Assembly (NCBI GenBank): GCA_016234495.1 | Contig: JACRBI010000049.1 | Coordinates: 1 to 64,000 of the forward strand | DNA: 64,000 bases | DNA from: Chloroflexota bacterium | GTDB lineage: Bacteria > Chloroflexota > Anaerolineae > Anaerolineales > Villigracilaceae | Direction of reading: 5' to 3' | Shown: positions 6,768 to 44,062 of the stretch, one piece after another | How positions within the stretch are numbered: position 1 is the first letter of the stretch | How the letters are laid out: the number at the start of each line of letters is the position of its first letter | Program-made: the position numbers and the translations under genes | Notes under the pieces: generated by a model | Seen by the model: the letters and a program-made list of their open reading frames with translations, nothing else | What the model was told of the DNA's origin: nothing | Databases searched by the model: none

Positions 6768-6829
6768 CCTTTGAGTGTACAATAAATGCCGCAGGTACGT
6801 CAATTCAAAAAGCAGTTCTGGAGGATGGT

Positions 6830-7804
6830 ATGCAATCGTTAATCGACTTTGGCATTTCTCTCATCGTCGCACTTCAAAGCATGGGCGATTGGCTGATCGC
6901 CCCCATGAAATTTTTTAGTTACCTCGGCAACGAGGAATTCTTTTTGCTTGTCCTGCCGCTGCTCTACTGGAGCGTTGATTCCGCGCTTGGCTTGCGGGTC
7001 GGCGTGATTCTTGTGACGAGTAATCTATTCAACAATGTCTTCAAACTGATCTTTGCCGGGCCGCGCCCGTATTGGGTCAGTTCGCATGTTCGCGCGCTGT
7101 GGACAGAAACATCCTTCGGCATTCCCTCCGGGCACGCGCAAAATGCGGTCACTGTTTGGGGGATGATCGCCGCCTATTACAAGCGGACCTGGGTCTGGGC
7201 GACTGCCATCGCGCTCATCTTCCTGATCGGTTTTTCGCGCATCTTCCTCGCCGCGCATTTCCCGCACGACGTGGTCTTCGGTTGGCTGTTAGGCGCGATT
7301 CTCCTGTGGGCATTCATGCGTTTCTGGGAGCCGATTGCAGCCCGTGTCAACCAAAAAACTTTGGCGCAAAAAATATTAATTGCTTTCATTACATCCATGC
7401 TTTTCATCGCACTTGGATTTGGCGCGACGAGTTTGCGGAGCGGATTTCAAATCCCTCAAACGTGGATGGATAATGCGCGCCTCGCCGGCGACGAATTGCC
7501 TGATCCTGTTGACCCAAACAGTACCTTCACCTCAGCAGGGACTTTCTTCGGGCTGGCAGCCGGCGCAGCGTGGATCCTGTCTCTTGGCGGGTATCAGGCC
7601 GCAGGTCCGATTCAGAAGCGCGCCATTCGTTACGTCATCGGCCTGGTCGGAGTCCTCATCCTTTATATGGGACTTGGTCAAATCTTCCCGCGCGATCCCG
7701 ACCTGATTTCCTACGCCCTGCGCTTTGTGCGTTACACGCTGATCGGTTTTTGGGTGGCGGGCGGCGCGCCGTGGGTCTTCAAGAAAATTAAACTCGCGGA
7801 GTGA
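6830..7804 (+). CDS. PAP2-family membrane phosphatase
   Basis: The ORF track begins at 6536, but the ATG at 6830 has a strong ribosome site (GGAGG, 5 nt before) and gives a 324-residue membrane protein. The three phosphatase motifs are intact: KLIFAGPRPYW, IPSGHAQNAV and SRIFLAAHFPHDVVFG (acid-base and nucleophile histidines). About eight membrane segments follow. The family dephosphorylates lipid phosphates such as undecaprenyl pyrophosphate or phosphatidate at the outer membrane face. It heads a plus-strand run of envelope polysaccharide genes, which favours a lipid-carrier role; this is inference. Confidence 0.88.
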   Translation: MQSLIDFGISLIVALQSMGDWLIAPMKFFSYLGNEEFFLLVLPLLYWSVDSALGLRVGVILVTSNLFNNVFKLIFAGPRPYWVSSHVRALWTETSFGIPSGHAQNAVTVWGMIAAYYKRTWVWATAIALIFLIGFSRIFLAAHFPHDVVFGWLLGAILLWAFMRFWEPIAARVNQKTLAQKILIAFITSMLFIALGFGATSLRSGFQIPQTWMDNARLAGDELPDPVDPNSTFTSAGTFFGLAAGAAWILSLGGYQAAGPIQKRAIRYVIGLVGVLILYMGLGQIFPRDPDLISYALRFVRYTLIGFWVAGGAPWVFKKIKLAE

Positions 7805-7818
7805 TTCGAAGTTCATTC

Positions 7819-9045
7819 ATGAAAATTTTGCTGCTCAACCAAGCCTTCGTCTCGCCGGACGAGCCGGGGCATACGCGCCATTTTGAGATGGCGCAATTCT
7901 TGCGCGCGCGCGGACATGAGTTGGTGATCGTCGCCAGTGATTTGAATTATCAAACGGGACAGCGCACGGTGGAGCGGCGCGGACTCTTTGCCGAGCAGGT
8001 CATTGACGGCGTGCGGATTCTGCGCGCGTATATTTTCCCCGCGCTGCATCGCAGTTATTTTTGGCGCATCATTTCGTTCTTTAGTTTTATGTTCAGCTCG
8101 GTGTGGACTGCGCTGACCGTGAAAGATGCGGACATCATCATGGGCACCACGCCGCCAATCTTTCAGGCTGTCTCTGCCTGGGTCGTGGCTTTGATTCGGC
8201 GCAAGCCGTTCCTGCTCGAAGTGCGCGACCTGTGGCCTGAGTTCGGCGTCAGCATGGGCGTGCTGAAGAATCCGATCGTGATCGCGCTCGCGCGCTGGCT
8301 TGAAAACTTTTTGTATGCGCGCGCCACACATATTCTCGTCAATTCACCGGCGTACAAGGAATATATGCTCGGCAAAGGCGTGCCTGAAAACAAAGTCACC
8401 TACATTCCCTACGGCACAGATGTGGATATGTTCAACCCCGATGTGGACGGTTCATCCATTCGCGCGAAGTTGGAGTTGGAAAATAAATTTGTTGTGCTTT
8501 ACGCGGGCGCGCTCGGGCAGGCGAATGACATTGATACCATTCTGCGCGCGGCAGAAAGATTGAAGCCGCACGACAAAATTTGCTTTGTCCTGTTTGGCGA
8601 TGGCAAGGAACGTACGCGGCTCGAATCTGAATCAAGGCGAAAGAATTTATCGAATGTCATCTTTGCCGGTGTTTGCCCCAAGAAGGAAATGCCGCTCGTG
8701 ATCGCCTCTTCTGATGTGTGCCTCGCGATCCTTCAGGATATTCCCATGTTCCGCACCACCTACCCGAACAAGGTTTTTGATTACATGGCCGCTGCGCGCG
8801 CGACTGTGCTGGTCATTGACGGTGTTGTGCGTGATGTGATCGAATCTTCCGACGGTGGTGTGTTCATCCAGCCGGGCGACGATGAGCAGCTTGCTGAAAC
8901 GATCCGCGATCTGGCAAATGCTCCGCAGCGCGTGAAGCAAATGGGATTGAACGCGCGCGCATACCTGGTGAAGCATCTTGACCGCCGCGATAAATTAGAT
9001 GAAACGCTCACCTTGCTTAAATCATTAACCACAAAGGAGCACTAA
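7819..9045 (+). CDS. Glycosyltransferase family 4 (WbuB/WcaI-like)
   Basis: 408 residues from the ATG at 7819 (a GTG at 7801 overlaps the previous stop; the ATG starts the usual MKILLLNQAF strand). Two Rossmann-like lobes: the N-terminal acceptor lobe with the PDEPGHTRHFEMAQFL loop, and the GT-B donor lobe with VLYAGALGQANDIDTILRAAE and the later PNKVFDYMAAARATV, in place of the usual E-x7-E. It probably adds a sugar during capsule or exopolysaccharide synthesis on the inner membrane. The last residues (TTKEH) are encoded by a palindromic repeat that supplies the stop codon. Confidence 0.87.
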   Translation: MKILLLNQAFVSPDEPGHTRHFEMAQFLRARGHELVIVASDLNYQTGQRTVERRGLFAEQVIDGVRILRAYIFPALHRSYFWRIISFFSFMFSSVWTALTVKDADIIMGTTPPIFQAVSAWVVALIRRKPFLLEVRDLWPEFGVSMGVLKNPIVIALARWLENFLYARATHILVNSPAYKEYMLGKGVPENKVTYIPYGTDVDMFNPDVDGSSIRAKLELENKFVVLYAGALGQANDIDTILRAAERLKPHDKICFVLFGDGKERTRLESESRRKNLSNVIFAGVCPKKEMPLVIASSDVCLAILQDIPMFRTTYPNKVFDYMAAARATVLVIDGVVRDVIESSDGGVFIQPGDDEQLAETIRDLANAPQRVKQMGLNARAYLVKHLDRRDKLDETLTLLKSLTTKEH

Positions 9046-9090
9046 GGGTCACAAAGAAAACCTTTGTGTTACTTCGTGACCCTTCGTGGT
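9028..9090. repeat. Palindromic repeat, ACCACGAAGG type
   Basis: The sequence ACCACAAAGGAGCACTAAGG ... CCTTCGTGGT forms an inverted repeat that contains the stop codon of the glycosyltransferase and ends 10 bp before the next start. Close relatives lie at 31627-31697 and 36042-36102. Confidence 0.75.
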
Positions 9091-9100
9091 TGATTCTTTT

Positions 9101-9958
9101 ATGAAAATATTTGTCACAGGCGCGACGGGATTTACCGGCTCACGTGTCATCCCCATATTATTGCAAAACGGATTTGAAGTCCGCTGTCTTTACCGCGCGA
9201 CGAGTGACCGCTCGCTTCTTCCCCAGCCCGAAATTGAGTGGGCGTTAGGGGATGTCTCCGACACTCAAGCCTTATCCGCTTCGATGCGCGGCATGGATGC
9301 CCTCGTCAATATTGCCTCGCTCGGCTTCGGCCACGCGGATTCGATCATCGCGTCTGCCAAAGCGGCCGGGGTCAAGCGCGCGCTCTTCATCAGCACCACA
9401 GCCATCTTCACACAGTTGAATGCGGACAGTAAATCCGTGCGCATGGCAGCCGAGACAGCCATCCAAAACAGCGGACTGGACTTCACCATCCTGCGCCCGA
9501 CCATGATCTACGGCAGCCCGCGCGACCGCAACATGTGGCGGCTGATTCGCCTGCTACGAATTACGCCCATCATGCCCATCTTCGGCGACGGCGAGTCTTT
9601 GCAGCAGCCCATCTATGTGGACGATGTGGCGCAAGCCGTGCTTCGCGCCTTGCAAACGGATGCAACCATCGGCAAAAGTTATAACATCGCCGGCAAAGAT
9701 TCTCTGACCTACAACCAGGTGATTGACACAGTAGCGTCTGCTCTCGGTAGGCGCGTCTGGAAACTTCACCTGCCGTTTATGCCGATTGTCCGTGTGTTGC
9801 AATTTACTGAACGGTTGGGCCTTCGCCTGCCCATCAAATCTGAGCAGGTGTTGCGCCTGAACGAGAACAAGGATTTTTCCTACGCAGAAGCGCAAAGGGA
9901 CTTTGGGTTTAGTCCGCGCGAGTTTGAACAGGGGATAAAACTGGAGTTGACGGGTTAG
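9101..9958 (+). CDS. NAD-dependent epimerase/dehydratase-like SDR
   Basis: 285 residues from the ATG at 9101, which starts the canonical MKIFVTGATGFTGSRV dinucleotide-binding strand (TGxxGxxG). The ORF track adds five residues encoded by the upstream repeat. The extended-SDR middle has FISTTAIFTQL and FTILRPTMIYGSPRDRNMW. The usual catalytic YxxxK is not present where expected; the stretch reads SKSVRMAAETAI, as in atypical SDRs. The protein may therefore bind NAD(P) and modify a nucleotide sugar by a different residue set, or not be an epimerase. It lies between two polysaccharide genes. Confidence 0.8.
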   Translation: MKIFVTGATGFTGSRVIPILLQNGFEVRCLYRATSDRSLLPQPEIEWALGDVSDTQALSASMRGMDALVNIASLGFGHADSIIASAKAAGVKRALFISTTAIFTQLNADSKSVRMAAETAIQNSGLDFTILRPTMIYGSPRDRNMWRLIRLLRITPIMPIFGDGESLQQPIYVDDVAQAVLRALQTDATIGKSYNIAGKDSLTYNQVIDTVASALGRRVWKLHLPFMPIVRVLQFTERLGLRLPIKSEQVLRLNENKDFSYAEAQRDFGFSPREFEQGIKLELTG

Positions 9959-25854: not shown

Positions 25855-27540
25855 TTACTTTCCACTCCCCAACTCCCTCAAAAACTTCTCCTTATTCGCC
25901 GAACGCGCCGTCTTGCCGCTGGATGTTTTCACGATCCATTTTTCTCCAACCACCCTCACATGCCTCAGCGCGATGGCGGAGCTTTTTGTCACATGCTTGC
26001 GGATCGCGTCCGCGATGACTTCCTGCTCCGCGGGTTCTTCGCTGTCCACTTCGGCGATGATGACAACTTCCTCCGTCCCTGCGTCTTCATCGTACATGCC
26101 AAACGCCACCGTGCGGCCTGGGTGTACGCCGGGCACTTCACTGGTCAGCGCTTCGAGGTCCTGCGGATAAATATTTTTTCCGCCGACGATGATCATGTCC
26201 TTTTTGCGGCCCGAGACATACAACTCGCCGTCCGCGAGAAAACCGTAATCGCCGGTCATGTACCAGCCATCGCGCAGCGCCAACTCGGTCGCATCGGGAC
26301 GGTTGTAGTAACCTGTCAACATGCAGTCACTTTGCAGCATGATCTCACCGACGACTCGTTCGGGAATATCCATGCCATTTGAATCCACCACGCGGATTTT
26401 TGTGTTGGAGAGCGGACGTCCCGACGACATCACTTTCATTGACGAGCGACCAGCCACCGGCGGAGTCACGATGCGCTCCATCATGAAGGACTCGCGGTCG
26501 ATCTCAACGACAGTTGGTCCGGCTTCCAACAAGCTTTGAGTCACCCCGAAGACATTCTCCGCCATGGCATAGGATGTCTGTAAAGCCAGCGGATTCAGCC
26601 TGAACTTCTCGAACTTCTCCGCAAAGAGACGATGGCTTTCGGCGTGGACAGGCTCGGAGCAATTGATGATCGCGCGCCACGTGGAGAGATCGACGCCTTC
26701 GAGGTTTCGCTCGCGGATCTTGTTGGCGCAAAAGTTGTAGGCGAAATTTGGAAGCCAGCTTAATGTCCCTTTGTATTGCGAGACAGATTGCAGCAGCTTG
26801 TACGGAGCGCGCACCCAATCGAAAGGCGACAACTCAACGACTGGCACGCGCAGAAGGACTGGCATGAGGAAGCACGAGATCAATCCCATATCGTGATAGA
26901 GTGGCAGCCACGAAACGATGACATCTTTTTCAGGGTCAAGTTGAATGGCTGTGCTGTACGCCTCAAGTTGATTGAGAACAGCTTTGTGCGAGAGCGCCAC
27001 ACCTTTTTGCAGACCGGTTGTCCCCGAAGAATGCTGCAAGATGACAATATCTTCGGGCGCGGCCTGCATGCCTTGTAGAGAATCGAAATCAGGTTCAGCT
27101 TGCGGCTCAATGGTATTGGTTACGATGACTTTACGAATCGAGTCGCCGGGCGCGAGCGCCGAGCGCGCTTCAGATTCAAACTCTGCGGAGGTGATGATCG
27201 CAACTGGTTTTGTAATTGAGATTAGCGAAGCCAGATCGGCGCGGTATCTTTCGGGCGAAAGTTTTTCGCTCAAGAACGGCATGATCGCGGGAATCGCGCC
27301 GTGCAGAATCGCACCCCAAAAAGAGAAGACCAGATCCTGTCCGTGCTGAAGAATTAAGAGCACAACCTCGCCGGGCTTTATATCTTCGCGCGCATAAGTC
27401 AATGCATATTGATTCGCGCCGAGGATCAACTGGCGAAAGGTCAACTCCTGATCGGGCTGACTTGCGTGCTGCAAAACAATGCTCCTTTTTTCAGGGATTT
27501 CCAAAAAGGAGCGGTGTAGTAGGTTTGAGAGTGTGGTCAT
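25855..27540 (-). CDS. Fatty-acyl-AMP ligase (FAAL-like)
   Basis: 561 residues, soluble. Adenylation motifs: LQHSSGTTGLQKGVALSHKA (P-loop), SWLPLYHDMGLI (typical of FAAL/acyl-AMP ligases), WYMTGDYGFLADGELYVSGR and KDMIIVGGKNIYPQDLE, and C-terminal KTSSGKTARS with the catalytic Lys. It should activate a carboxylic acid, probably a fatty acid, as acyl-AMP and load it on the carrier protein encoded 30 bp upstream. In the operon it takes the place that DltA has in dlt clusters. Last gene of the acylation operon. Confidence 0.88.
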   Translation of the reverse strand: MTTLSNLLHRSFLEIPEKRSIVLQHASQPDQELTFRQLILGANQYALTYAREDIKPGEVVLLILQHGQDLVFSFWGAILHGAIPAIMPFLSEKLSPERYRADLASLISITKPVAIITSAEFESEARSALAPGDSIRKVIVTNTIEPQAEPDFDSLQGMQAAPEDIVILQHSSGTTGLQKGVALSHKAVLNQLEAYSTAIQLDPEKDVIVSWLPLYHDMGLISCFLMPVLLRVPVVELSPFDWVRAPYKLLQSVSQYKGTLSWLPNFAYNFCANKIRERNLEGVDLSTWRAIINCSEPVHAESHRLFAEKFEKFRLNPLALQTSYAMAENVFGVTQSLLEAGPTVVEIDRESFMMERIVTPPVAGRSSMKVMSSGRPLSNTKIRVVDSNGMDIPERVVGEIMLQSDCMLTGYYNRPDATELALRDGWYMTGDYGFLADGELYVSGRKKDMIIVGGKNIYPQDLEALTSEVPGVHPGRTVAFGMYDEDAGTEEVVIIAEVDSEEPAEQEVIADAIRKHVTKSSAIALRHVRVVGEKWIVKTSSGKTARSANKEKFLRELGSGK

Positions 27541-27548
27541 ATTTCGTT

Positions 27549-27573
27549 GGGGCGACGCAATGCGTCGCCCTTA
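27549..27573. repeat. GGGCGACGCA palindrome at the carrier protein 3' end
   Basis: GGGGCGACGCAATGCGTCGCCC is a perfect palindrome between the carrier protein and the ligase; it begins at the carrier protein's stop codon. Confidence 0.65.
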
Positions 27574-27816
27574 CATGCGCGAAGCGATCAACTCTGTCAG
27601 CTGGGATAAATTATCGAATGTCTGGGCATTCAACTCGGTATCCTCGATCCGCACCCCGAAGGTATCTTCCACAAATAATGCCAGGTCCATCAAACTAAAT
27701 GAATCAATTAATCCGCTGGAGATCAGGGCTTCGTCAGGTTTGATAACTTTGTTCGGCTGCTTCAAAATTTTTTCAGCAATGAATTTTGCCAGCGCCGATG
27801 TGATGTTTCCGGTCAT
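27571..27816 (-). CDS. Acyl carrier protein
   Basis: 81 residues forming a four-helix carrier. The phosphopantetheine serine is in SSGLIDSFSLMDLALFVED (about residue 39); acidic helix II follows, as in ACPs and DltC. Ribosome site AGGAG lies 6 nt before the ATG. Probably accepts the acyl group from the adjacent AMP ligase and presents it to the MBOAT protein at the membrane, by analogy with DltC. Confidence 0.9.
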   Translation of the reverse strand: MTGNITSALAKFIAEKILKQPNKVIKPDEALISSGLIDSFSLMDLALFVEDTFGVRIEDTELNAQTFDNLSQLTELIASRM

Positions 27817-27935: not shown

Positions 27936-28883
27936 TTATTTATTCAACCCGTTCCGCACGGCATCCAGCGTTTGCAAGGCAGTGAGATTCCTCCACGGCC
28001 AGGCGCGTTCCATGTTCGCGGGGTCGTCAAAGTAATAGCTTTTACCGATGGACAAATGGAACCCGTCATTCAGACTCAGGTCAAATCCGTTGTTGGGCAG
28101 GGGATGAGCCGCCGCCCAGAAATTCCAAAGTGGAATATCGTATTCGTTGGCGATCGCGGCGATCTCGGCATTGATGCTGTGATTGCCTTCAATATTATCC
28201 GCTTTGGTGGCGAGAATCGGCACCACGCCCTGCGAAATGCTGTACTCCACGATCTGCCGCATGTAGGTCCCATATTTTTCAGCGGACTGCTGATTGAAAT
28301 TCGTCTCCATGCTGATGACGATCACAGACGGGTGATTCAATCGAATCTCGCAAGCCAGCGGGTTTTCACTTTTCTCGCATTGATCTGGATCAGCCCGCAG
28401 CGGAGAGAGAACCGCCGCCACATTGAATCCATCTTTAACCGCCAAACTCTGCCGCGAGAATGAGCCGTGATAATAATCAATCGTGGATTGCAGGTAGGCA
28501 TAATCTGATCCGAGGCTGTATTGTTTGGGATGGTCGAAGCCGACCAGAAAGAAGTCAGTGCTGACCTGGCAGTCGCCAACTTTTGAAAAGGCGTTGGGAT
28601 CATTGCCGAGTTTAAGCCCGCGGCGATAGATTTCGATCACTGTCTCGCTGACCGACGGGACGATTGGAAGAGTCATCCATTCATCCGCTGCGAGTGTCGG
28701 GCGCGGCGCGGAAGTGGGCGCTGCCGCCTTCGTCGCTGATTGAACAACTGTCGGCGCAGATTGACCCGGCGTGGCGGTCTTGTCTTTGTGAACCGGCGCG
28801 ACTGTTGTTTGAATTGCATCCGCGCCGCAGGCAGAGATCAGCAAGGCCGCCGCGCACAGAATCAAGAATTTAACTTTAAACAT
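27936..28883 (-). CDS. SGNH-like lipoprotein with GDC motif
   Basis: 315 residues. Lipobox LLISACG (about residues 14-20) predicts a lipid-anchored exported protein; a Pro/Ala/Thr-rich linker follows to about residue 70. The block I motif where SGNH hydrolases have GDS reads FSKVGDCQVS, so a Cys would replace the nucleophile; the last motif SLNDGFHLS keeps Asp and His. It sits in the acylation operon directly after another SGNH gene, where a DltD-like transfer or release role is plausible. Whether the Cys is catalytic is unknown. Confidence 0.78.
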   Translation of the reverse strand: MFKVKFLILCAAALLISACGADAIQTTVAPVHKDKTATPGQSAPTVVQSATKAAAPTSAPRPTLAADEWMTLPIVPSVSETVIEIYRRGLKLGNDPNAFSKVGDCQVSTDFFLVGFDHPKQYSLGSDYAYLQSTIDYYHGSFSRQSLAVKDGFNVAAVLSPLRADPDQCEKSENPLACEIRLNHPSVIVISMETNFNQQSAEKYGTYMRQIVEYSISQGVVPILATKADNIEGNHSINAEIAAIANEYDIPLWNFWAAAHPLPNNGFDLSLNDGFHLSIGKSYYFDDPANMERAWPWRNLTALQTLDAVRNGLNK

Positions 28884-28897
28884 TCCTACTCCAAAAT

Positions 28898-29992
28898 TTA
28901 TTTACATGCCGCTGTAATGACAGGTGCAATTTTCCATGTCAGCACAGCCTCGCCCTGCGGCGTGAGATGGATCGCGCTGTTGGTAAATTCTCCCGCAGGC
29001 ACGGCATCCCAAAGATCGACATAAGCCCAATTATTCTTCAGGCTCAATTCGCTCATCATCGAACGATATTGATCATACGCCCAGCGCGGATAAAAGAAAT
29101 TATAGCGGATGTCGCTGTTTTTTCCTGCGCTGATCATCATCGGCTCATTGACAATGACGATCGGCGTATCGCCCGCCATTTTGATTCCAGTTTCGAGCGC
29201 ATTGAGCGCAAGCGAATTTTTGTCCAGCACGGGCGGCTCGAACCCGTGAAATTTCTGGTCGGCTTCAAGGTCAGTTTGCGCGGGTTCATAATCCGGCGGG
29301 TAAACCTGGTCAATGCCGGTCGCAGCCCACATCACGCCGTAGATCTGCAGGCGGAAGACATCTGCAAGCGCTCTCTGCTTCCCGATGATGGTACTCTCCC
29401 AAAATGAGTCCCGGCTAAAAGCAGGGTCATTCGCATCTACCTTAAGCCCGGAGCTGTTTGCCAGACGAAGGAGAGACTCCTCGTTGTTGGCGACCAACGG
29501 CGAAGCGATCTGCTTCTCCATTGGGAATGCTTCCAATGTCGTCAGCCAGATGACAAGGTCTGGCTGATACTCCAGCGCGCGCGAAAGAAGCAGCAGGTCT
29601 TTCGTCAACGAAATGGTCGGATACCCAAGGTTGTAAACACGGACATTTTTCCCGCAGGCAGAAATCTTCGCAGAATTAAGCTGGCCGGCGAGAGTCTCTT
29701 CGGGCTTGAGCAGCGTCCCCCAAACAGATGAATCGCCGATGAGTATCACGCGGAAATCATCATCTTGCTTTTCATCGCCGTTGATCTTGTGCGAAGCGAA
29801 CATCGCGTCCAGGTCAAACAAGCTGAGGTTATACGCTTCGGCGGAGTTCTCACCGAATGGCAATCGCTCCCGCCCGGGGAAGAGGATGTTATAGGCAGAC
29901 AACTTCCCCATTGCCGGCGGGAAGAAAGCGAACAACAGGTTGAGGATAATAAAAAGGGACAAGCCTTTGAGGATGATATTAAGTGTTTTCAT
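28898..29992 (-). CDS. Membrane-anchored SGNH-family protein (DltD/AlgX-like position)
   Basis: 364 residues. An N-terminal helix (about residues 7-27) anchors an extracytoplasmic domain. RVILIGDSSVWGTLL carries the GDS nucleophile; YNLGYPTISLTKDLLLL and VIWLTTLEAFP follow; the C-terminal block reads FTNSAIHLTPQGEAVL, with His present but Ser three residues before it where Asp is usual. Next to the MBOAT gene, such proteins (DltD, AlgJ/AlgX) complete acyl transfer to a polymer. The gene lies 58 bp after the MBOAT gene on the same strand. Confidence 0.8.
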   Translation of the reverse strand: MKTLNIILKGLSLFIILNLLFAFFPPAMGKLSAYNILFPGRERLPFGENSAEAYNLSLFDLDAMFASHKINGDEKQDDDFRVILIGDSSVWGTLLKPEETLAGQLNSAKISACGKNVRVYNLGYPTISLTKDLLLLSRALEYQPDLVIWLTTLEAFPMEKQIASPLVANNEESLLRLANSSGLKVDANDPAFSRDSFWESTIIGKQRALADVFRLQIYGVMWAATGIDQVYPPDYEPAQTDLEADQKFHGFEPPVLDKNSLALNALETGIKMAGDTPIVIVNEPMMISAGKNSDIRYNFFYPRWAYDQYRSMMSELSLKNNWAYVDLWDAVPAGEFTNSAIHLTPQGEAVLTWKIAPVITAACK

Positions 29993-30050: not shown

Positions 30051-31496
30051 TTAACGTAAACCAAATAATTTCAAAAATACCTGCATCGAAGTGGAAGTTG
30101 ACGACAGGGCAAAGAATATCCAGCCAAGTGAGACGAAGTGAAAGGTAACGACAACTCCGACGGCATTCAACAGCGACTTGCGAAACGGAGTCACAGCCCA
30201 CTCCCCAGCGCGGACTTTGGTCATGTCGCCCCAGCGGTTGTGGATGAACAAGCCAAGCCCGTGCCACAGCCCCCACAGCGTGAAATTCCATGTGACGCCG
30301 TGCCAGAAGCCGATCAACAGCATCGTGGCGACTTGGGTCAGCGCGATCATGGCCGGCGCGGGCAACGGCTTTTCCCACGACCTCAGCCAGCGCGTGACCG
30401 GGTTGAAAAAATAAGCGCGGAACCATTGCGTCAATGTCATGTGCCAGTTGTTCCAGAACTGGGTCAGGTTGGGTTTGAGATATGGGGAGGCGAAGTTTTC
30501 GGGCAGGTTGATTCCGAGCAGGCGGGCAATGCCGAGCGCGATGTCGGTATAGCCGCTGAAGTCGAAGTAGATCTGGAATGCGTACGCGTAAAGCACAATC
30601 CACATCCAGCCGACAGATTTAACTTGCAGCGCATTCGTTTCGTTCAAGGCGATTAAGGCGAGAGCATCGGCCACGACAAATTTTTTGAACAAGCCAAGCA
30701 TGAAGCGCTGGCTTGCAATTAATAGTTCATCGTTTCCAAGCGCAGATGGTTTGCGCAGGTCTTTGATGAATCGTTCAATGCGGTCAATGGGACCGGCGGT
30801 GAAGGCCGGGTAGAAAATAACGTAGGTCACGTACTCGGCCAGGTCAACTGCGGGAAGGCGCCCCATTTGCCGGTCGCGCAATGTGTGGATGATACGGAAT
30901 GCTACGTAGGAGAATCCAAGCCAGCGGAAGTCAGTAATGCGCGACGAGAAAACGTCCTGTCCCGTGAGCGAGCGGAGAAAGTAAACGAGCCAGTAGGATA
31001 GGTCGGGAATTTTGATGAGCAGGAAAAGCCCAATGGTCAGGAGCAGACCGGCCGTCACCCACAGGGGGCTGCGCCAGAATGATGCGCTGAACTTCGTCAG
31101 ACGAGATAAGGCTGAGAGAGTCAGTCCGGCCACGAAAAGAATCGCGATGGTAATTTCGATTTGAGGCGGGCGGGATGGGGTGAGGAGCGAGACGAAAGGC
31201 AGGAAGCGGGTCAGGTTGAGGAGCAGAATTGTGCAGGCCAGAATTCCAGCGGTGATCCAGTTCTTTTTTTCGCGGCGCGATTCTTCGGCGGCAGTGATGT
31301 GCCAACTGAAAACTGTGATGATGAGCGTCGCAACGGGAATCCAAAAATCGAATCCGCGCAGGGGCAGGGACGGCTGCAGCCAGAAGATGACGAGTGTGCT
31401 TGCAATAAGCAGGAAGTACACGCGGCCGCGTTCGCGCATGACCAGCCCCCAGAATAATGCCGCCGCCGCGACGATCAGGATTTGAACGATCGTCAT
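30051..31496 (-). CDS. MBOAT O-acyltransferase (DltB/AlgI-like)
   Basis: 481 residues, about eleven membrane segments. The MBOAT core is intact: WNNWHMTLTQWFRAYFF and LLIGFWHGVTWNFTLWGLWHG, with the conserved catalytic His in the second. IYFDFSGYTDIALGIARLLG precedes. DltB and AlgI relay acyl groups across the membrane to envelope polymers. The start lies 1 bp after the stop of the DltX-like microprotein gene, so translation is likely coupled. Confidence 0.9.
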   Translation of the reverse strand: MTIVQILIVAAAALFWGLVMRERGRVYFLLIASTLVIFWLQPSLPLRGFDFWIPVATLIITVFSWHITAAEESRREKKNWITAGILACTILLLNLTRFLPFVSLLTPSRPPQIEITIAILFVAGLTLSALSRLTKFSASFWRSPLWVTAGLLLTIGLFLLIKIPDLSYWLVYFLRSLTGQDVFSSRITDFRWLGFSYVAFRIIHTLRDRQMGRLPAVDLAEYVTYVIFYPAFTAGPIDRIERFIKDLRKPSALGNDELLIASQRFMLGLFKKFVVADALALIALNETNALQVKSVGWMWIVLYAYAFQIYFDFSGYTDIALGIARLLGINLPENFASPYLKPNLTQFWNNWHMTLTQWFRAYFFNPVTRWLRSWEKPLPAPAMIALTQVATMLLIGFWHGVTWNFTLWGLWHGLGLFIHNRWGDMTKVRAGEWAVTPFRKSLLNAVGVVVTFHFVSLGWIFFALSSTSTSMQVFLKLFGLR

Positions 31497-31497
31497 G

Positions 31498-31614
31498 CTA
31501 AAAGCCCTGATAGATCCAGGTTGGGCTGCTGTCTGCGGTGAAGATGACGAGCGCGATCAGAATCAGGCAGAAGAGGAGGGCGAAGAGGTTTTCGCGGGAA
31601 AGGATGCGTTTCAT
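31498..31614 (-). CDS. DltX-like 38-residue membrane microprotein
   Basis: Not in the ORF track because of length. ATG at 31614, stop TAG at 31500-31498, one base before the MBOAT start. The peptide has a short basic start (MKRILSREN), one membrane helix (about residues 9-26) and the C-terminus PTWIYQGF. DltX of Gram-positive dlt operons is likewise a short single-helix protein ending in an aromatic-Ile-Tyr-x-x-Phe motif whose Tyr has been implicated in acyl relay by DltB. Position, topology and C-terminal motif all agree; homology is inferred, as so short a protein cannot be proven related by eye. First gene of the operon. Confidence 0.75.
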   Translation of the reverse strand: MKRILSRENLFALLFCLILIALVIFTADSSPTWIYQGF

Positions 31615-31704: not shown

Positions 31705-32085
31705 TTAACGGACTCCGCAGACAAGCCAGTCGCCGCCCTGTTCAACGACCTGATAGGTGCGGGTGGACAGGTCGAGTTCTTGATTCTCGCCGTTGTAGCT
31801 GAGGATCATTTTACCCGCGCAATTGACGAGGGTCATCTGGCCATCTGTGCCCATTTCCTGACAGGCAAATCCTTCCAGAGTTGATGTCACAGCCTGGAGT
31901 GAATCCAGTTCGATCAGCGCATCCGATTCCCATTCGGCGCAGGATAGCGCGGACAGTTTATCGGCGTCGTTGGCAACGATCGCATTGACGTAGCCTTCGA
32001 CTGCTCCGACCGCAGGGTTTGACGACGCGCAGGCTGATAACATGATGCCAAGTCCGACTATACAAACGATTAAAAGTTTTTTCAT
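31705..32085 (-). CDS. Small lipoprotein of unknown function
   Basis: 126 residues. Signal sequence with lipobox IMLSACA (about residues 14-20). The mature part has an NTF2/SnoaL-like pattern (AVEGYVNAIVANDADKLSAL ... TYQVVEQGGDWLVCG) and four further cysteines that may form disulphides outside the membrane. No specific function is recognised. Same orientation as the acylation operon but separated from it by a repeat. Confidence 0.75.
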   Translation of the reverse strand: MKKLLIVCIVGLGIMLSACASSNPAVGAVEGYVNAIVANDADKLSALSCAEWESDALIELDSLQAVTSTLEGFACQEMGTDGQMTLVNCAGKMILSYNGENQELDLSTRTYQVVEQGGDWLVCGVR

Positions 32086-37027: not shown

Positions 37028-40000
37028 TTATTCACTTGCAGGACGCTCCATAAACTTTTCGATCATTTGTTTCAGCACCTTCAAGCGGACGGGTTTGCTC
37101 AGGTACTCGTTCATGCCTGCGGCGAGACAGCGCTCACGGTCGCCGGGCATGGCAAAGGCGGTGAGCGCGATGATCGGAACAGAATCAAACCTCGGGTCGG
37201 AGCGGAGGCGGTGCGTGGCTTCGAATCCGTTAACGCGCGGCATTTGCAGGTCCATTAAAATGACATCCGGTAAAATTTCCGCGGCTTTGGCGAGCGTTTC
37301 TTCTCCGTCTCTGGTCGTGAAAACCTGATAGCCGCAATGTCCGAGGTAATCTTCCACGATCATCACGTTGGCATCGTTGTCATCTGCGAGCAACACCTTC
37401 CCCAAAAAGACCGGCGCCGCAGTTTCAATCACAATGTTTCTGCTTTCATCGCTGATTGGATCAAGTGCCTCCTTTTCTTCGGGAGTTTGTTTCCACGGCA
37501 GGGTAAAGGCAAAGCAGCTTCCCACGCCGACTTCACTTTGCAGGGTGATCGTCCCGCCGTGCATCTCAACCAGTTTTTTCACCAGCATCAATCCCAACCC
37601 TGTGCCTTCATACTGACGTGACAAACTGCTGTCCACCTGTACAAAAGGCTTGAATAATTTTTGCATGTCTCCGGAGGCGATGCCAATGCCAGTATCTGTG
37701 ACGGAAAAGCGCATCAGTCCTGCTTTTGCATCGGCTTGCACATCGAGTTTGACCGTGCCGTTTTCCGGGGTGAACTTGACTGCGTTGTTCAGCAGGTTGA
37801 CGAGAATCTGTTTCAGGCGTTTTGAATCAGCGAAGACGGTTGACGCGGCCGGCGCGACGGTATGTTCCAGAGTAATGGATTTCTTGCCCGCCAGATGTTT
37901 GACAAAGACCAGACTCGCGAGGCAGATATCATTGACTGCGATGTTTTCCGGACGCAATTCAAACTTGCCCGATTCGATCTTGGACACATCGAGAATGTCG
38001 TTGATCAACCCGAGCAGATGCTCGCCGCTCGAGCGGATCATATCCAGCGCCTGTTCCTGCCTCTGGTTCAACGGGCCGCGCACTCCCTCCAGCAGGGTCT
38101 CGGAAAAACCGATGATGCCGTTGAGCGGCGTGCGCAATTCATGGCTCATGTTGGCGAGGAACTCGTCCTTGGCGCGGTTGGCGCGGACCAGTTCAATGGT
38201 ACGTTCCTCCACCCGTAATTCCAATTCATTGGCGTATTGACGGATCAAATCCTCATTATGCTTGCGTTCGGTAACATCCTGAAGAAATCCAATCGAACTG
38301 ATGGCAATGCCGTTCTCATCGAAGATTGGGATGGATAGATCGGTGATCCAGCGTTTTGTTCCATCCTTGGCGAGGATGAGGTTGTCACAGCGCCAGTTAG
38401 GTAGTTGACCCGCCAGCATTAATTTGGCGGCGTCATTGATGGATAAATGAGACACTTCTCCAAGCATACGGGCTTCCAGTTCGAGCGAAGTGTAAAGCTC
38501 CGGGGTCATTTCTTCCGCAGGGTATCCAGTCAATGCAAGGATTCCCTCCCCCATATAGGAATATGAAAACGTCTTAAAGTCCATCTGGTAGGGCACGGAG
38601 CCGGATGCCTCGGCAGCCCGCCGGAAGCGATCTTCACTTTCCTTGATGGCTTTCTCAGCCCGCCTGCGTTCGGTGATATCTTCCAACATGCACAGGTGGC
38701 GCGGATGATGTTGATCTTCAAACTTTAACGGGGCAATGATCATATTTACCCAGACGGCTGTTTCATCGGGGCGGAGGAAGCGCTTTTCCATCTGGTATCC
38801 GTTTATCTTGCCCTGATTCAACAAGGCCATTTTATTCAAGTCAGCCTGCACATCGTCGGGGTGGGTGATTTTCATCCAGTCAATATTCGGCACTTCCTCC
38901 ATTGACATGCCGATAATCTCCGTGAAGCGGGGATTGACCTCGTCAATTCTTCCCGTGATCGAGTCGGTCAAGGCGATACCCAAAGGCGCCTGCAGGAACA
39001 TGGTTCTGAATCGTTCTTCGCTTGACTTCAGCGCCTCCTCTGCCAGCTTGCGCTCGGTGATATCCTGTGCCGCGCCAATGAAATGTGTCACCAGCCCGCT
39101 TTCGTCGCGCACCGATCCCCCAATATTATTTAACCAACGTATCTCGCCATCTTTTCGAATGATACGGTATGCAATTGCGTCAACCTTTTCGCCGGTATCA
39201 TTGCGACGGTTGCGCTCTTCTAATATGTGGCGATCGTCGGGATGAACAATGGAACCCATTCCGTTTTTAAATTCCGGGTCGGTGGATACATAACCAGTGA
39301 TTTTTGAAAACGCCTCAGTTGTCCATTCGCGGTTATAGGTCCCGTCTGACTCGAGGCGGAAGGAATAAGCATAATCGGAAGTCAGGTTTGAAACAACGCG
39401 ATAGCGCTGCTCACTTTGTTTGAGCGCATCCTCCGCCTGCTTGCGCTCGGTGGTGTCGATCATTGAAATGATCACCCTGGATAAGGGATTTTCGCGGTCA
39501 GGGACGGCCCGCCAGTTCAGGTCAATATTGCGCGACCCGCCGTCCACCGTGCGAATAACTCCCTCCCACCCGAAATTGGTCTTGCCTTCGGCCACATTGA
39601 CAAGCTCATTTTGGAATTGTTGAATGGGCTCCCCTTTTAATAATTCTGCTATATTCCCGAGCAGGTCGCCTTTATTCTGCGCGTTAAATAATTTTAATGC
39701 CGCCTTGTTGACATCCAACACTTTCACAAGGGATGCGAATTCAAGCACCAATTGGGGGCGCAGGTCAAAATATTCTTTGAAGTCTGTCACCCCTGACTCG
39801 CGCAAATGGTCGAAGCGTTGCTTGATGTCTGTAAAATCCTCTTCCCAAAGCGCGATGGGCGAGTCTTCAAACAAACTGCGGTAGCGCGTTTCGTTTGCGC
39901 TTAATGCCAACTCTGCCTGCTTGCGCTCGGTGATGTCCACGTACATGGCGCGCGTGCCGAGGATGTTTCCCTGCGAATCGTTTTCAGCCACCGCAGTCAG

Positions 40001-43000
40001 CATGGTATGGATCAGCCGTCCGTCGCGGGTGACGAGCTCGCGCTCCTCGGCGTGCAGGAAGGATGTCATTGCGCGCTGGTAACCGCCGCCCTCCATCAGC
40101 GCCATGCGCGAATCGGGTGAGTAAAAATCACCCAGAGGACGTCCCATCACTTCGGCGCGGGAGTATCCCGTCGCTTGTAAAAAGGCCTGATTACATTCAG
40201 TAATGATCGGGGTGCCCGCTTCGCTGCGTGTGCTGATGTACATCAGCGGCGCCTCTTCAAACAGGCTGTGATATCGCTCCTCAGCCCAACGCAATGCCTC
40301 CTCTGCCTGTTTGCGCTCGGTGACATCGCGCGCCACGGCAATGATGACTTTCTTTCCAAAATATGTGCCGGCTGTCAGGCTCACATCCTTGGGGAAGATC
40401 GAACCGTCCTTGCGTAATCCCCAAAATTCAAATTGCTGCGGTTCGCCCTCGTACGCTTTGCGCACACATTCCACAACTGCGGCCAGGTCGTTTTTACCCG
40501 GCGCAGAGAGAAATTCCGGGGTGTGCCCGATGAACTCGCTTTTTGGGTATCCATACAGTTTTTCAGAAGACAGGTTCACGTCAAGGAAAAGCCCGTTCTC
40601 ATCCTGAATATAGACCGCCTCTGTGACGCTGTTGATGATCCCTTGATAGGTGGATTGCGACAGGCGCAGCTGCTCCTCGGCCTGCTTGCGGGCTGAAATA
40701 TCTTCGACCATGCCCTCGAAATAGAGCAGATTCCCTTCTGCATCCAGCACCGAGCGGACACTTTCCGAAACCCAGATCACGCTTCCATCTTTACGACGGG
40801 CCTGATACTCGAACCCGGAGAGATTCCCACCCTGTTCTTTTAACAAGCGGACATGTTCAGCGCGTATCTCGGGGCTGGTGTACACCTGTCGCGCAGTATC
40901 GGTGACGCCTGCGATCAGGTCTGACGGAGAATCATAGCCCCACATGCGCGCCAGCGCCGGGTTGGCGATAAGGAAGCGCCCTTCAGGCGTGCTTTGAAAT
41001 ATTCCTTCCAAAGAATTCTCGAAGATGGCGCGGTATTTTTCTTCAACCTGCCTGCGCGCGGCAAGTTCGTCCTGAAGTTTTTGCATCAATCCCACATTTT
41101 GCAAACTGACAGCCACCTGCGAGGCGAATGCTTCCACCGATGGCAGGTCATTTTCAGTTAAGTTCGAGCCGCCGATGGTCATCATTCCCAAAGCTAAATC
41201 GCTCACATGCAAAGGAGCCATAATCCCCCGCTCAATTTGCAGCACACGTGTCAGTTGTCCTGCCAGCGGGCGGAAAATCCCCGGCAGCGCCTCTGCGATC
41301 ATGTCGCCTGTCCAATCCACAAATCTTGGCTTCCTTGAGGCAATGACTTGTCCGTAAGCAGATTCTTCCGAAATTGGCAGGCGATAATCTTGCAGCGAAA
41401 TCCCCAGCAGTTTCTCGCCAGAGGCGATGATCTTCGAGGCAAAGGCGGTGTAATTGATTGCCAGATGGCTGGTATCCTGATCAAAGGTAAGGATGGTGAC
41501 CGTAAGTCCGAGCCTTTTCAATTGCTCGCCCACAGCCTGATATATCTCTTCAGGCGTGCGCGCCTGTTGGATGGGCTGCGCAGCCTGGCTGAGCGCCAGC
41601 AAAAGTTCATGGCTGTGGTGCAAGGCCTCCTCTGCTCGTTTGCGCTCGGTGATATCCTCCACCATGCCTTCGTAAAATATTTCCCTGCTGACCTCATCTT
41701 GAATGGCACGGGCGCTTTCGCGCACAAAAATGAAAGAGCCGTCTTTGCGCTTCCAGGCAGATTCCATGCCACGCACGACCCCATCCTGTTTGATCCTGCG
41801 CAGGAATTCAGAGCGGGGGTGGTTTGGATCGTAGCCGGTTTTCTCAAGGTCGCGGCTGGCAAGTTCCTCAAAACTTTCATATCCCAACATGCGCACCAAA
41901 GCCGGATTGGCCATCAAAATGCGGCCGTCAACCGTGGTACGGTACATGCCAATAGTGGCGTTTTCATACAGCCCCCGGTAGCGTTCTTCGCTTTCTTTGA
42001 GCAGGCGCTCAGCCTGTTCGCGTTTGGTGATGTCGCGTCCGCCGAAAATGGCACCACCTCTTTGACCGCGTTCATCCAGAAGGGGATTAATGGTCGTCTC
42101 AAGCCAGAGGTAATGTCCAGCCGCGTGACGGAAGCGAAATTTAACCAACTCCGGTAATTTCCCTGATGTCAATTCTTTTCTGGCAGCAAGCGCTCTTTCC
42201 AAATCTTCCGGGTGAATATAACCAAGGAGCTCCCTGCCCAATAAATCTTCCGGCAAGTATCCCAGTACAGTTTTATGTGAAGGGCTGACGTATCGAAAGA
42301 TTCCACCCGTATCCACTTGGCTGACCATATCAAGCATGTTATCGGTTATGAGCCGCAGGCGTTCTTCATTCCTGCGCAGCGTTTCCTCCATCTGCTTGCG
42401 CTCGGTCAAGTCAATGCCGATCGATTGGAATTCGATTAGCCTGCCATCGACATCCAGAATGGGGGTATCAATCCACTGATAATAGCGCTCGCTGCCACCC
42501 TCAACCTTTACGGTGTGTTCATAGGTGACTGTTTCCGGGTTTTCAACCACTTTTCTATAAAAAGCGGCAGTGGTTTCGCGGGTTTCTTCGGGTAAATAAT
42601 CAACCCATTTTTGCCCTGCCACATCGCCTTGAACACTGAATATCCCGCGGTAGCTTTCGTTGGCATAGATCAGGGTGGTATCAGGCAGCCAGCGGCAAAG
42701 GCTGACATCCATGGCGTTCACGAGGCTGCGATACAGTTCTTCACTCTCGCGCAGGGTTTTCTCCGCAGTCTTGTGCCCGGTAATATCCCTGAGTACTGAT
42801 TGTGTGCCGGTAATTTTCCCCGTTTCGTCTGTAATCGCAATGACATCCACTTCGATCCAAAATTTTTCCCCGCTCTTTCGGATACCCTCATATTCAAAAT
42901 GTGATGGGACATCCTCCCCGCGTACACGGCGGTTGTGTCGCTCGCGCAGTTCAGCCCGCCACTCGGGTGCAATGTAATCTTCAAGCCTGACATGATGCAG

Positions 43001-44062
43001 TTCATCCTGCTGGAAACCGTACAGGTCACAGAACCGTTCATTGGCAAAGATAATATTTCCGTCAATATCATCCACGATCAAGGCATCATTAATATGCTCA
43101 ACCACCCGGCGGAATTTTTCCTCGCTGGCTTTGAGCGCCTCTTCCGCCAATTTGCGCTCGCTGATATCGCGCGCAATACTTTGAATGTGAAGCGGCTGTC
43201 CGCCTGCATCGCGCACCAATTCCAAATTAATCTCAACCGGCAGCAAGGCTCCATCCTTGCGGCGGAAGACACGTTCATATACCGGTATTTGCTCACCGTT
43301 TAATAACCGCTCAAGTTTCTGCCTGCTTTGTGGTAATTCATTGGATGTGTCAACAACTGAAATCTGCTGAATTTCATCAAGACCGTACCCGAGCATTTCT
43401 GCAGCGCGGCGGTTGGCCGCCTGATGCCGCCCCTGCAGATCCAAAATGAAAACCGCATCATGCGATTGGTCAAATAATGAACGATACCGAATTTCAGCCT
43501 GGCGCTGGGCATCCTCAGCCTGCCTGCGCTCGGTAATATCGCGGGCAATGGCATGTACAAGCGGAGCCGGCAGCCCCTCAACTTGCAGGGTGTTGTTATA
43601 TTCCAAATAGCGGATTTCCCCTTCGGCGGTTTGAATTTTAAGAACGCCGCGCGCCTGTTTATTCAATTTCACATGCTCGAGGTACGCGCCAAATTTATGA
43701 CGCACATCCGGCGCAAGCACCTCACGCAGATTCATTTTCAACAAGGCTTTATTCGAGTACCCCGAAAGGCGCGTTCCAGCCTCGTTGACAAAGAGCAGCT
43801 TTCCGTCCATGTCGTGCGTGCAGATCAGGTCCTGACTGTGCTTCATCAAATCCGTTAATTGACGAAGAACCGCATCAGACTTAACCCGCGCCTGATTCAG
43901 CGCTTCAATTTGAGTCTTTAATTGAGCCTGATTCTCCTGCGGCTCATGCGCGTACTGTGGACCGTCCCGGCTGGCTTTGGGGAGAGCTTGCGCGGATTCC
44001 TTTTTTTTCGGTTTTGGGCGGCGTTCACCTGTATTTGTTTTTTTGTCAGCCTTCATGAGCAC
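37028..44062 (-). CDS. Giant multi-PAS hybrid histidine kinase
   Basis: 2344 residues with no membrane segment. I count 13 PAS/PAC-type units, each closing with a DITERKxAEEAL-like linker: six before a GAF domain (roughly residues 830-1000) and seven after it. A HisKA domain follows with MSHELRTPLNGIIGFSE (about residue 1965), then HATPase boxes (NLLNNAVKFTPENG, DTGIGI, GTGLGL) and a C-terminal receiver domain with DDNDANVM and the phospho-acceptor in VILMDLQMPRVNG. It should integrate several cytosolic signals and relay phosphate internally; the final output protein is not adjacent. PAS unit 10 has an unusual insertion (HLRESGVTDFKEYFDLRPQ). The gene is one uninterrupted frame. Confidence 0.92.
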   Translation of the reverse strand: MLMKADKKTNTGERRPKPKKKESAQALPKASRDGPQYAHEPQENQAQLKTQIEALNQARVKSDAVLRQLTDLMKHSQDLICTHDMDGKLLFVNEAGTRLSGYSNKALLKMNLREVLAPDVRHKFGAYLEHVKLNKQARGVLKIQTAEGEIRYLEYNNTLQVEGLPAPLVHAIARDITERRQAEDAQRQAEIRYRSLFDQSHDAVFILDLQGRHQAANRRAAEMLGYGLDEIQQISVVDTSNELPQSRQKLERLLNGEQIPVYERVFRRKDGALLPVEINLELVRDAGGQPLHIQSIARDISERKLAEEALKASEEKFRRVVEHINDALIVDDIDGNIIFANERFCDLYGFQQDELHHVRLEDYIAPEWRAELRERHNRRVRGEDVPSHFEYEGIRKSGEKFWIEVDVIAITDETGKITGTQSVLRDITGHKTAEKTLRESEELYRSLVNAMDVSLCRWLPDTTLIYANESYRGIFSVQGDVAGQKWVDYLPEETRETTAAFYRKVVENPETVTYEHTVKVEGGSERYYQWIDTPILDVDGRLIEFQSIGIDLTERKQMEETLRRNEERLRLITDNMLDMVSQVDTGGIFRYVSPSHKTVLGYLPEDLLGRELLGYIHPEDLERALAARKELTSGKLPELVKFRFRHAAGHYLWLETTINPLLDERGQRGGAIFGGRDITKREQAERLLKESEERYRGLYENATIGMYRTTVDGRILMANPALVRMLGYESFEELASRDLEKTGYDPNHPRSEFLRRIKQDGVVRGMESAWKRKDGSFIFVRESARAIQDEVSREIFYEGMVEDITERKRAEEALHHSHELLLALSQAAQPIQQARTPEEIYQAVGEQLKRLGLTVTILTFDQDTSHLAINYTAFASKIIASGEKLLGISLQDYRLPISEESAYGQVIASRKPRFVDWTGDMIAEALPGIFRPLAGQLTRVLQIERGIMAPLHVSDLALGMMTIGGSNLTENDLPSVEAFASQVAVSLQNVGLMQKLQDELAARRQVEEKYRAIFENSLEGIFQSTPEGRFLIANPALARMWGYDSPSDLIAGVTDTARQVYTSPEIRAEHVRLLKEQGGNLSGFEYQARRKDGSVIWVSESVRSVLDAEGNLLYFEGMVEDISARKQAEEQLRLSQSTYQGIINSVTEAVYIQDENGLFLDVNLSSEKLYGYPKSEFIGHTPEFLSAPGKNDLAAVVECVRKAYEGEPQQFEFWGLRKDGSIFPKDVSLTAGTYFGKKVIIAVARDVTERKQAEEALRWAEERYHSLFEEAPLMYISTRSEAGTPIITECNQAFLQATGYSRAEVMGRPLGDFYSPDSRMALMEGGGYQRAMTSFLHAEERELVTRDGRLIHTMLTAVAENDSQGNILGTRAMYVDITERKQAELALSANETRYRSLFEDSPIALWEEDFTDIKQRFDHLRESGVTDFKEYFDLRPQLVLEFASLVKVLDVNKAALKLFNAQNKGDLLGNIAELLKGEPIQQFQNELVNVAEGKTNFGWEGVIRTVDGGSRNIDLNWRAVPDRENPLSRVIISMIDTTERKQAEDALKQSEQRYRVVSNLTSDYAYSFRLESDGTYNREWTTEAFSKITGYVSTDPEFKNGMGSIVHPDDRHILEERNRRNDTGEKVDAIAYRIIRKDGEIRWLNNIGGSVRDESGLVTHFIGAAQDITERKLAEEALKSSEERFRTMFLQAPLGIALTDSITGRIDEVNPRFTEIIGMSMEEVPNIDWMKITHPDDVQADLNKMALLNQGKINGYQMEKRFLRPDETAVWVNMIIAPLKFEDQHHPRHLCMLEDITERRRAEKAIKESEDRFRRAAEASGSVPYQMDFKTFSYSYMGEGILALTGYPAEEMTPELYTSLELEARMLGEVSHLSINDAAKLMLAGQLPNWRCDNLILAKDGTKRWITDLSIPIFDENGIAISSIGFLQDVTERKHNEDLIRQYANELELRVEERTIELVRANRAKDEFLANMSHELRTPLNGIIGFSETLLEGVRGPLNQRQEQALDMIRSSGEHLLGLINDILDVSKIESGKFELRPENIAVNDICLASLVFVKHLAGKKSITLEHTVAPAASTVFADSKRLKQILVNLLNNAVKFTPENGTVKLDVQADAKAGLMRFSVTDTGIGIASGDMQKLFKPFVQVDSSLSRQYEGTGLGLMLVKKLVEMHGGTITLQSEVGVGSCFAFTLPWKQTPEEKEALDPISDESRNIVIETAAPVFLGKVLLADDNDANVMIVEDYLGHCGYQVFTTRDGEETLAKAAEILPDVILMDLQMPRVNGFEATHRLRSDPRFDSVPIIALTAFAMPGDRERCLAAGMNEYLSKPVRLKVLKQMIEKFMERPASE

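Follow-up and report, generated by a model that had tools for sequence, protein, structure and literature searches.

What does a 38-residue protein contribute to an MBOAT pathway when its frame ends one base ahead of the MBOAT gene and its last six residues recall DltX? The question is raised by a locus in a 64,000-nucleotide stretch of Chloroflexota DNA, analysed here as a whole and referred to as the window. A preliminary description of the window had reported an ATG-started frame of this length directly before the MBOAT gene, one membrane helix in its product, and an aromatic-Ile-Tyr-x-x-Phe motif at the C-terminus; all three are borne out, and the strand, which it had not named, is minus. 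The frame, hereafter X, runs from 31614 to 31498 (stop codon included), comprises 38 codons encoding MKRILSRENLFALLFCLILIALVIFTADSSPTWIYQGF, and is parted by a single base (31497) from the MBOAT ATG at 31496. The protein has one hydrophobic helix (residues 9–28; 19-residue Kyte-Doolittle maximum 2.77), and WIYQGF forms its last six residues (33–38; 31501..31518, minus strand), including the proposed shuttle residue Tyr35 (31510-31512, minus strand). Because the N-terminus is basic, the positive-inside rule suggests that the C-terminal tail should face outward. We propose that X is the detached acyl-shuttle subunit of an MBOAT–SGNH pathway, and put the probability of this reading at roughly 80%.

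Automated annotation had been expected to miss so short a frame. No family in Pfam or NCBIfam searches gave X a name, so that it represents a small-protein family missed by profile libraries, but the expectation was too sweeping, as the frame is occasionally called, for instance as the 47-aa 'hypothetical protein' BCY19582.1 of a Leptolinea plasmid. On the 212-kb Leptolinea plasmid AP024711.1, a lipoprotein–X–MBOAT set occupies positions 7377-9356 (L158), and every member is annotated as a hypothetical protein.

X belongs to an operon of the order lipoprotein–X–MBOAT–SGNH1–SGNH2–acyl carrier protein (ACP)–fatty-acyl-AMP ligase (FAAL), all on the minus strand, as are the coordinates that follow, and the order from X to FAAL is retained in many relatives. 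The small lipoprotein upstream of X (31705..32085; 126 aa) adjoins X in most loci and matches no known family. The MBOAT (30051..31496) has a DltB-like fold without a C-terminal motif of its own; DltB structures rank first in a Foldseek search with its AlphaFold model, and it scores 218.2 bits against the DltB model TIGR04091 (cut-off 375). Its residues H352 (30441-30443) and H399 (30300-30302) are invariant and align, in an alignment to the solved DltB structures 6bug and 8jem, with His289 and His336, active-site residues of DltB (PMC11035591).

The next gene encodes SGNH1 (28898..29992), a GDSL/SGNH-type protein that we propose as the final acyltransferase and whose predicted structure has a membrane helix at the N-terminus and a soluble domain of the alpha/beta type. 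Its residues G86-D87-S88 and H342 are invariant, and Ser88 is the putative nucleophilic serine expected of MBOAT–SGNH systems; the canonical Asp three residues ahead of the His is not conserved. A profile search of the PDB found no relative of SGNH1 by sequence, and SGNH1 gave no match to DltD (PF04914). SGNH2 (27936..28883) is an SGNH-like lipoprotein in which G-D-C-Q (Cys105) replaces GDS, where the nucleophilic serine is expected, across 13 aligned sequences, C169 and C178 being invariant as well; it would be either a cysteine-nucleophile enzyme or a non-catalytic SGNH protein. The ACP (27571..27816; PP-binding, PF00550, E 1.4e-07) and the FAAL-type adenylating enzyme (25855..27540) are both kept in the operon, and are proposed to be, respectively, the acyl donor to the MBOAT and the enzyme that loads this donor. 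The best NCBIfam match of the ligase is PRK09192 fatty acyl-AMP ligase (348 bits, under the cut-off of 600), and its best PDB matches have 3kxw and the fatty acyl-adenylate ligase 3pbk at the top; judged by these matches, it appears nearest to FAALs, not to CoA ligases or amino-acid-activating domains. ACP or FAAL was not found near some X–MBOAT–SGNH1 loci, including the second such set in the window's genome (L048, G000:C21, ~6578-9196), where both are absent within the 18 kb examined.

The preliminary description had staked its claim on conservation of the frame and its motif in relatives with the same MBOAT gene, and the claim survived this comparison. Whole genomes yielded 30 loci of this MBOAT clade, among them the window's own, and at 29 of these an X-equivalent frame ends 0-31 nt upstream of the MBOAT; at the remaining locus (L019) the sequence where X is expected consists of Ns. 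All of these 29 short frames end in WIYQGF, save one that ends in WIYLGF; at one of the 29 loci (L022) the MBOAT reading frame is interrupted, giving two pieces. An alignment of 23 X sequences contains 10 invariant columns, six of which are P31, W33, I34, Y35, G37 and F38. Between X and its close relatives, synonymous sites are ~37-41% different and non-synonymous sites 3-8%, and because residues are kept while synonymous sites diverge, selection acts at the amino-acid level. The frame goes far beyond chance, and X is confirmed as a genuine gene under purifying selection.

A pattern scan of ~85,000 species genomes, independent of the whole-genome set, returned 326 matches, 305 of them relatives. 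The named records among the 80 that were listed are Chloroflexota; since the scan pattern itself included WIYQGF, the invariance of the motif in this 80-locus set is partly due to how the loci were selected. An MBOAT gene lies within ~140 nt of X in 70 of the 80 listed loci, and the other ten comprise two at a contig edge, one with an intervening gene, and seven in which X follows FAAL and the locus holds no MBOAT. In these seven (L088, L093, L098, L111, L120, L122 and L136), X comes directly after the FAAL gene, apart from any MBOAT, and in most of them the next genes, as judged by eye, are HypA/HypB-like and resemble hydrogenase-maturation genes.

The distribution of X follows that of its MBOAT. 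The MBOAT clade is present in 39 of 61 related genomes, and X in 37 of these 39 (in one, G017, as a partial frame running into N), while X is absent from all 22 related genomes without this clade. In the two clade-positive genomes without X (G041 and G059), it is not visible because a contig edge cuts the MBOAT. Three genomes have an MBOAT–SGNH1 pair without an adjacent X, which sits with FAAL at another locus; X therefore acts as a free-standing protein and not as a leader. The last point bears on a reading of the frame as an upstream ORF, either non-functional or regulatory: a leader peptide controlling MBOAT translation. Its shortness, together with a gap of 0-3 nt to the MBOAT start codon at many loci, would suit translational coupling, but the distance between the two varies up to ~140 nt, several genomes have X after the FAAL gene and far from any MBOAT, and the amino acids of X are kept while its synonymous sites diverge. 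On its separation from the MBOAT and the amino-acid-level selection, we rejected this explanation, which we consider barely conceivable.

Consistent with a shuttle subunit, the hexapeptide that X carries is the one its MBOAT lacks. MBOATs of the X clade end in ...KLFG or similar, the tyrosine hexapeptide being absent from the C-terminus, whereas most other MBOATs encoded in these genomes have a terminal hexapeptide of their own, such as FIYFQF, FLYVQF or GIYGGF, and no X upstream. X and the fused-motif MBOATs are complementary: the hexapeptide is either on X or on the MBOAT tail. The window's genome holds two split-type and two fused-type MBOATs, the fused tails being FLYVQF and FVYFKF. Two loci that had seemed to be exceptions without motif and without X (L176 and L183) were dropped as such, as the MBOAT tree groups both with DltB and true dlt operons surround them. 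In this tree, the split, DltB and fused types form three separate groups (SH-aLRT 99, 97 and 95, respectively), whose branching order is left open because the tree is unrooted. Searching with the X profile picks up certain fused-MBOAT tails at the C-terminus, the best at E 4.6e-7 in a small set, while its matches to true DltX are non-significant (E 0.4-1.2). These matches hint that X is perhaps a detached fused-MBOAT tail, an origin that we hold tentatively because the compared segments are short and hydrophobic.

The system resembles the fused-tail PatA/PatB type in pairing an MBOAT with an SGNH protein and in having a tyrosine hexapeptide as the presumed acyl shuttle; unlike that type, it has the tail as a separate gene in an operon with ACP and FAAL. 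The donor of PatA is acetyl-CoA (PMC12148441). We had considered a rule by which the detached shuttle goes only with ACP/FAAL and the fused tail only with CoA, and dropped it, since at one locus (L166, in genome G035) a fused-tail MBOAT adjoins a FAAL gene that shares 63% identity with the FAAL of the window. FAAL feeding is therefore not limited to the detached type, and the detached shuttle is no simple consequence of ACP feeding.

X had been described as DltX-like, a comparison that holds for its role and not for its family membership or its pathway. DltX, from Bacillota and from two same-genus Chloroflexota genomes, is likewise a protein of ~40-50 aa with one helix and a tail resembling aromatic-Ile-Tyr-x-x-Phe, which reads FIYNEF in Listeria and FIYQGY in the two genomes of this genus. 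It too is the partner of a tail-less MBOAT and shares its operon with a carrier protein. The hexapeptide motif of DltX is FXYXXF (PMC12148441), and X has the same anatomy, a single helix with a hexapeptide of this type at the very end, W replacing the first F. The MBOAT partners are also alike in their fold, their aligned catalytic histidines and their lack of a tail. The genomic evidence strongly supports a DltX-like role for X, because the tail is conserved, X occurs strictly with a tail-less MBOAT, and the operon supplies an SGNH protein and a carrier.

Unlike DltX, X has a conserved RENLxALxLC...TADSxP segment, its MBOAT partner belongs to another clade, a FAAL-type ligase takes the place of DltA, and the X and DltX systems coexist in one genome. 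The DltX family model PF12459 matches none of 23 X sequences, and its best match in the window's genome scores 8.8 bits at an unrelated place; as a positive control, the same model gives the DltX proteins of the same genus 33.3 and 29.8 bits, above its cut-off of 25. These comparisons weigh on the alternative that X is a DltX orthologue and the operon a divergent D-alanylation (dlt) operon. The set of microprotein, MBOAT, SGNH protein, carrier and ligase does parallel dltXABCD, the C-terminal motifs are alike, and TIGR04091 matches the MBOAT at 218 bits. That score, however, is under the 375-bit cut-off for DltB, and the MBOAT falls in the split clade (SH-aLRT 99), apart from the DltB clade (97); the ligase scores at most 36.5 bits against DltA (cut-off 560), no DltA above cut-off occurs in the window's genome, and the dltA/dltB/dltC/dltD setting is replaced by one with a FAAL-type ligase and an SGNH1 that DltD does not match. 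Furthermore, two genomes of the same genus (G012 and G026) both carry X with its MBOAT and, separately, a true dlt locus. With PF12459 missing X and finding DltX in these same-genus X carriers, orthology was rejected, and a divergent dlt operon seems to us very improbable.

The true dlt loci of these two genomes contain DltA above cut-off in each, DltD by PF04914 (tested in G012), DltB by its place in the tree, a DltC-like ACP, and DltX by PF12459; each also has a second DltA-type gene, one of the two scoring above cut-off as well. In both loci (L194 in G012 and L195 in G026), the two dltA-type genes flank dltB.

The anatomy of the operon suggests how X would work as a shuttle. In the DltX and PatA systems, the MBOAT transfers the acyl group to the tyrosine of a C-terminal hexapeptide, from which it passes to an SGNH protein (PMC12148441), and the corresponding parts appear to be present here: an MBOAT with the catalytic-histidine region, a tyrosine hexapeptide on X, and an SGNH partner. 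The chemical steps, cargo and acceptor proposed here are inferred from this gene anatomy. The FAAL-type ligase would adenylate some carboxylic acid, in all probability a fatty acid or another acyl acid, and load it onto the ACP, from which the MBOAT would accept the acyl on the cytoplasmic side. The MBOAT tunnel, in the region of H352 and H399, would then pass it to Tyr35 in the extracytoplasmic WIYQGF of X; the acyl-tyrosine would swing to SGNH1, which is anchored in the membrane and whose Ser88 would take the acyl and hand it to an envelope polymer.

AlphaFold2 models were made for the related locus L108, with X and MBOAT, or X, MBOAT and SGNH1, as one chain in which the stop codons were read through. 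The pTM was 0.86 for X–MBOAT and 0.77 for X–MBOAT–SGNH1. The folds and the X helix (residues 7-25) were confident, while the motif and linkers, in models where X is tethered, had pLDDT below 50, so that the models speak neither for nor against insertion of the motif near H399; the tether may itself block such insertion. A second view of X is that of a small subunit with a structural or regulatory part in stabilising the MBOAT–SGNH complex, whose C-terminal tyrosine stays unacylated. In its favour, the models do not place the motif in the tunnel, acyl-Tyr35 is putative, a scaffolding function is common among small membrane proteins, and DltX itself has both DltB and DltD as binding partners (PMC12148441). 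A pure scaffold, however, would need no hexapeptide, and this is exactly what the X-clade MBOATs miss and the fused MBOATs carry; moreover, conservation in X peaks in its last residues (P31, W33, I34, Y35, G37 and F38). We therefore regard a scaffold with an idle tyrosine as unlikely, and prefer the acyl shuttle.

MBOAT–SGNH acyl-shuttle systems are already known; what is new is a putative detached shuttle in a Chloroflexota FAAL/ACP pathway. A 2025 study described non-Dlt MBOAT pathways as being without a DltX-like microprotein (PMC12148441), and X, with 305 loci found, is a widespread counter-example to that statement. A literature text search, which mostly did not extend to subscription journals and is weak evidence of absence, returned no paper in which DltX, MBOAT and Chloroflexi are brought together. 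The findings suggest that separate clades can differ in having the shuttle attached or detached, and that, besides D-alanylation, there is another system fed by acyl-ACP in a phylum with poorly known envelope chemistry. At about even odds, we would extend the shuttle reading to a second detached-shuttle pathway in the Chloroflexota, in which a free-standing tyrosine microprotein, possibly split from a fused MBOAT tail and not descended from DltX, moves a fatty acyl group from a FAAL-charged carrier across the membrane to an envelope polymer, while some species also have true D-alanylation. The X system also offers a natural setting in which the acyl-tyrosine mechanism can be tested on another cargo. 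Elsewhere in the window, a minus-strand frame of 2344 residues (37028-44062) appears, on sequence alone, to encode a sensor histidine kinase that has multiple PAS domains and a receiver domain.
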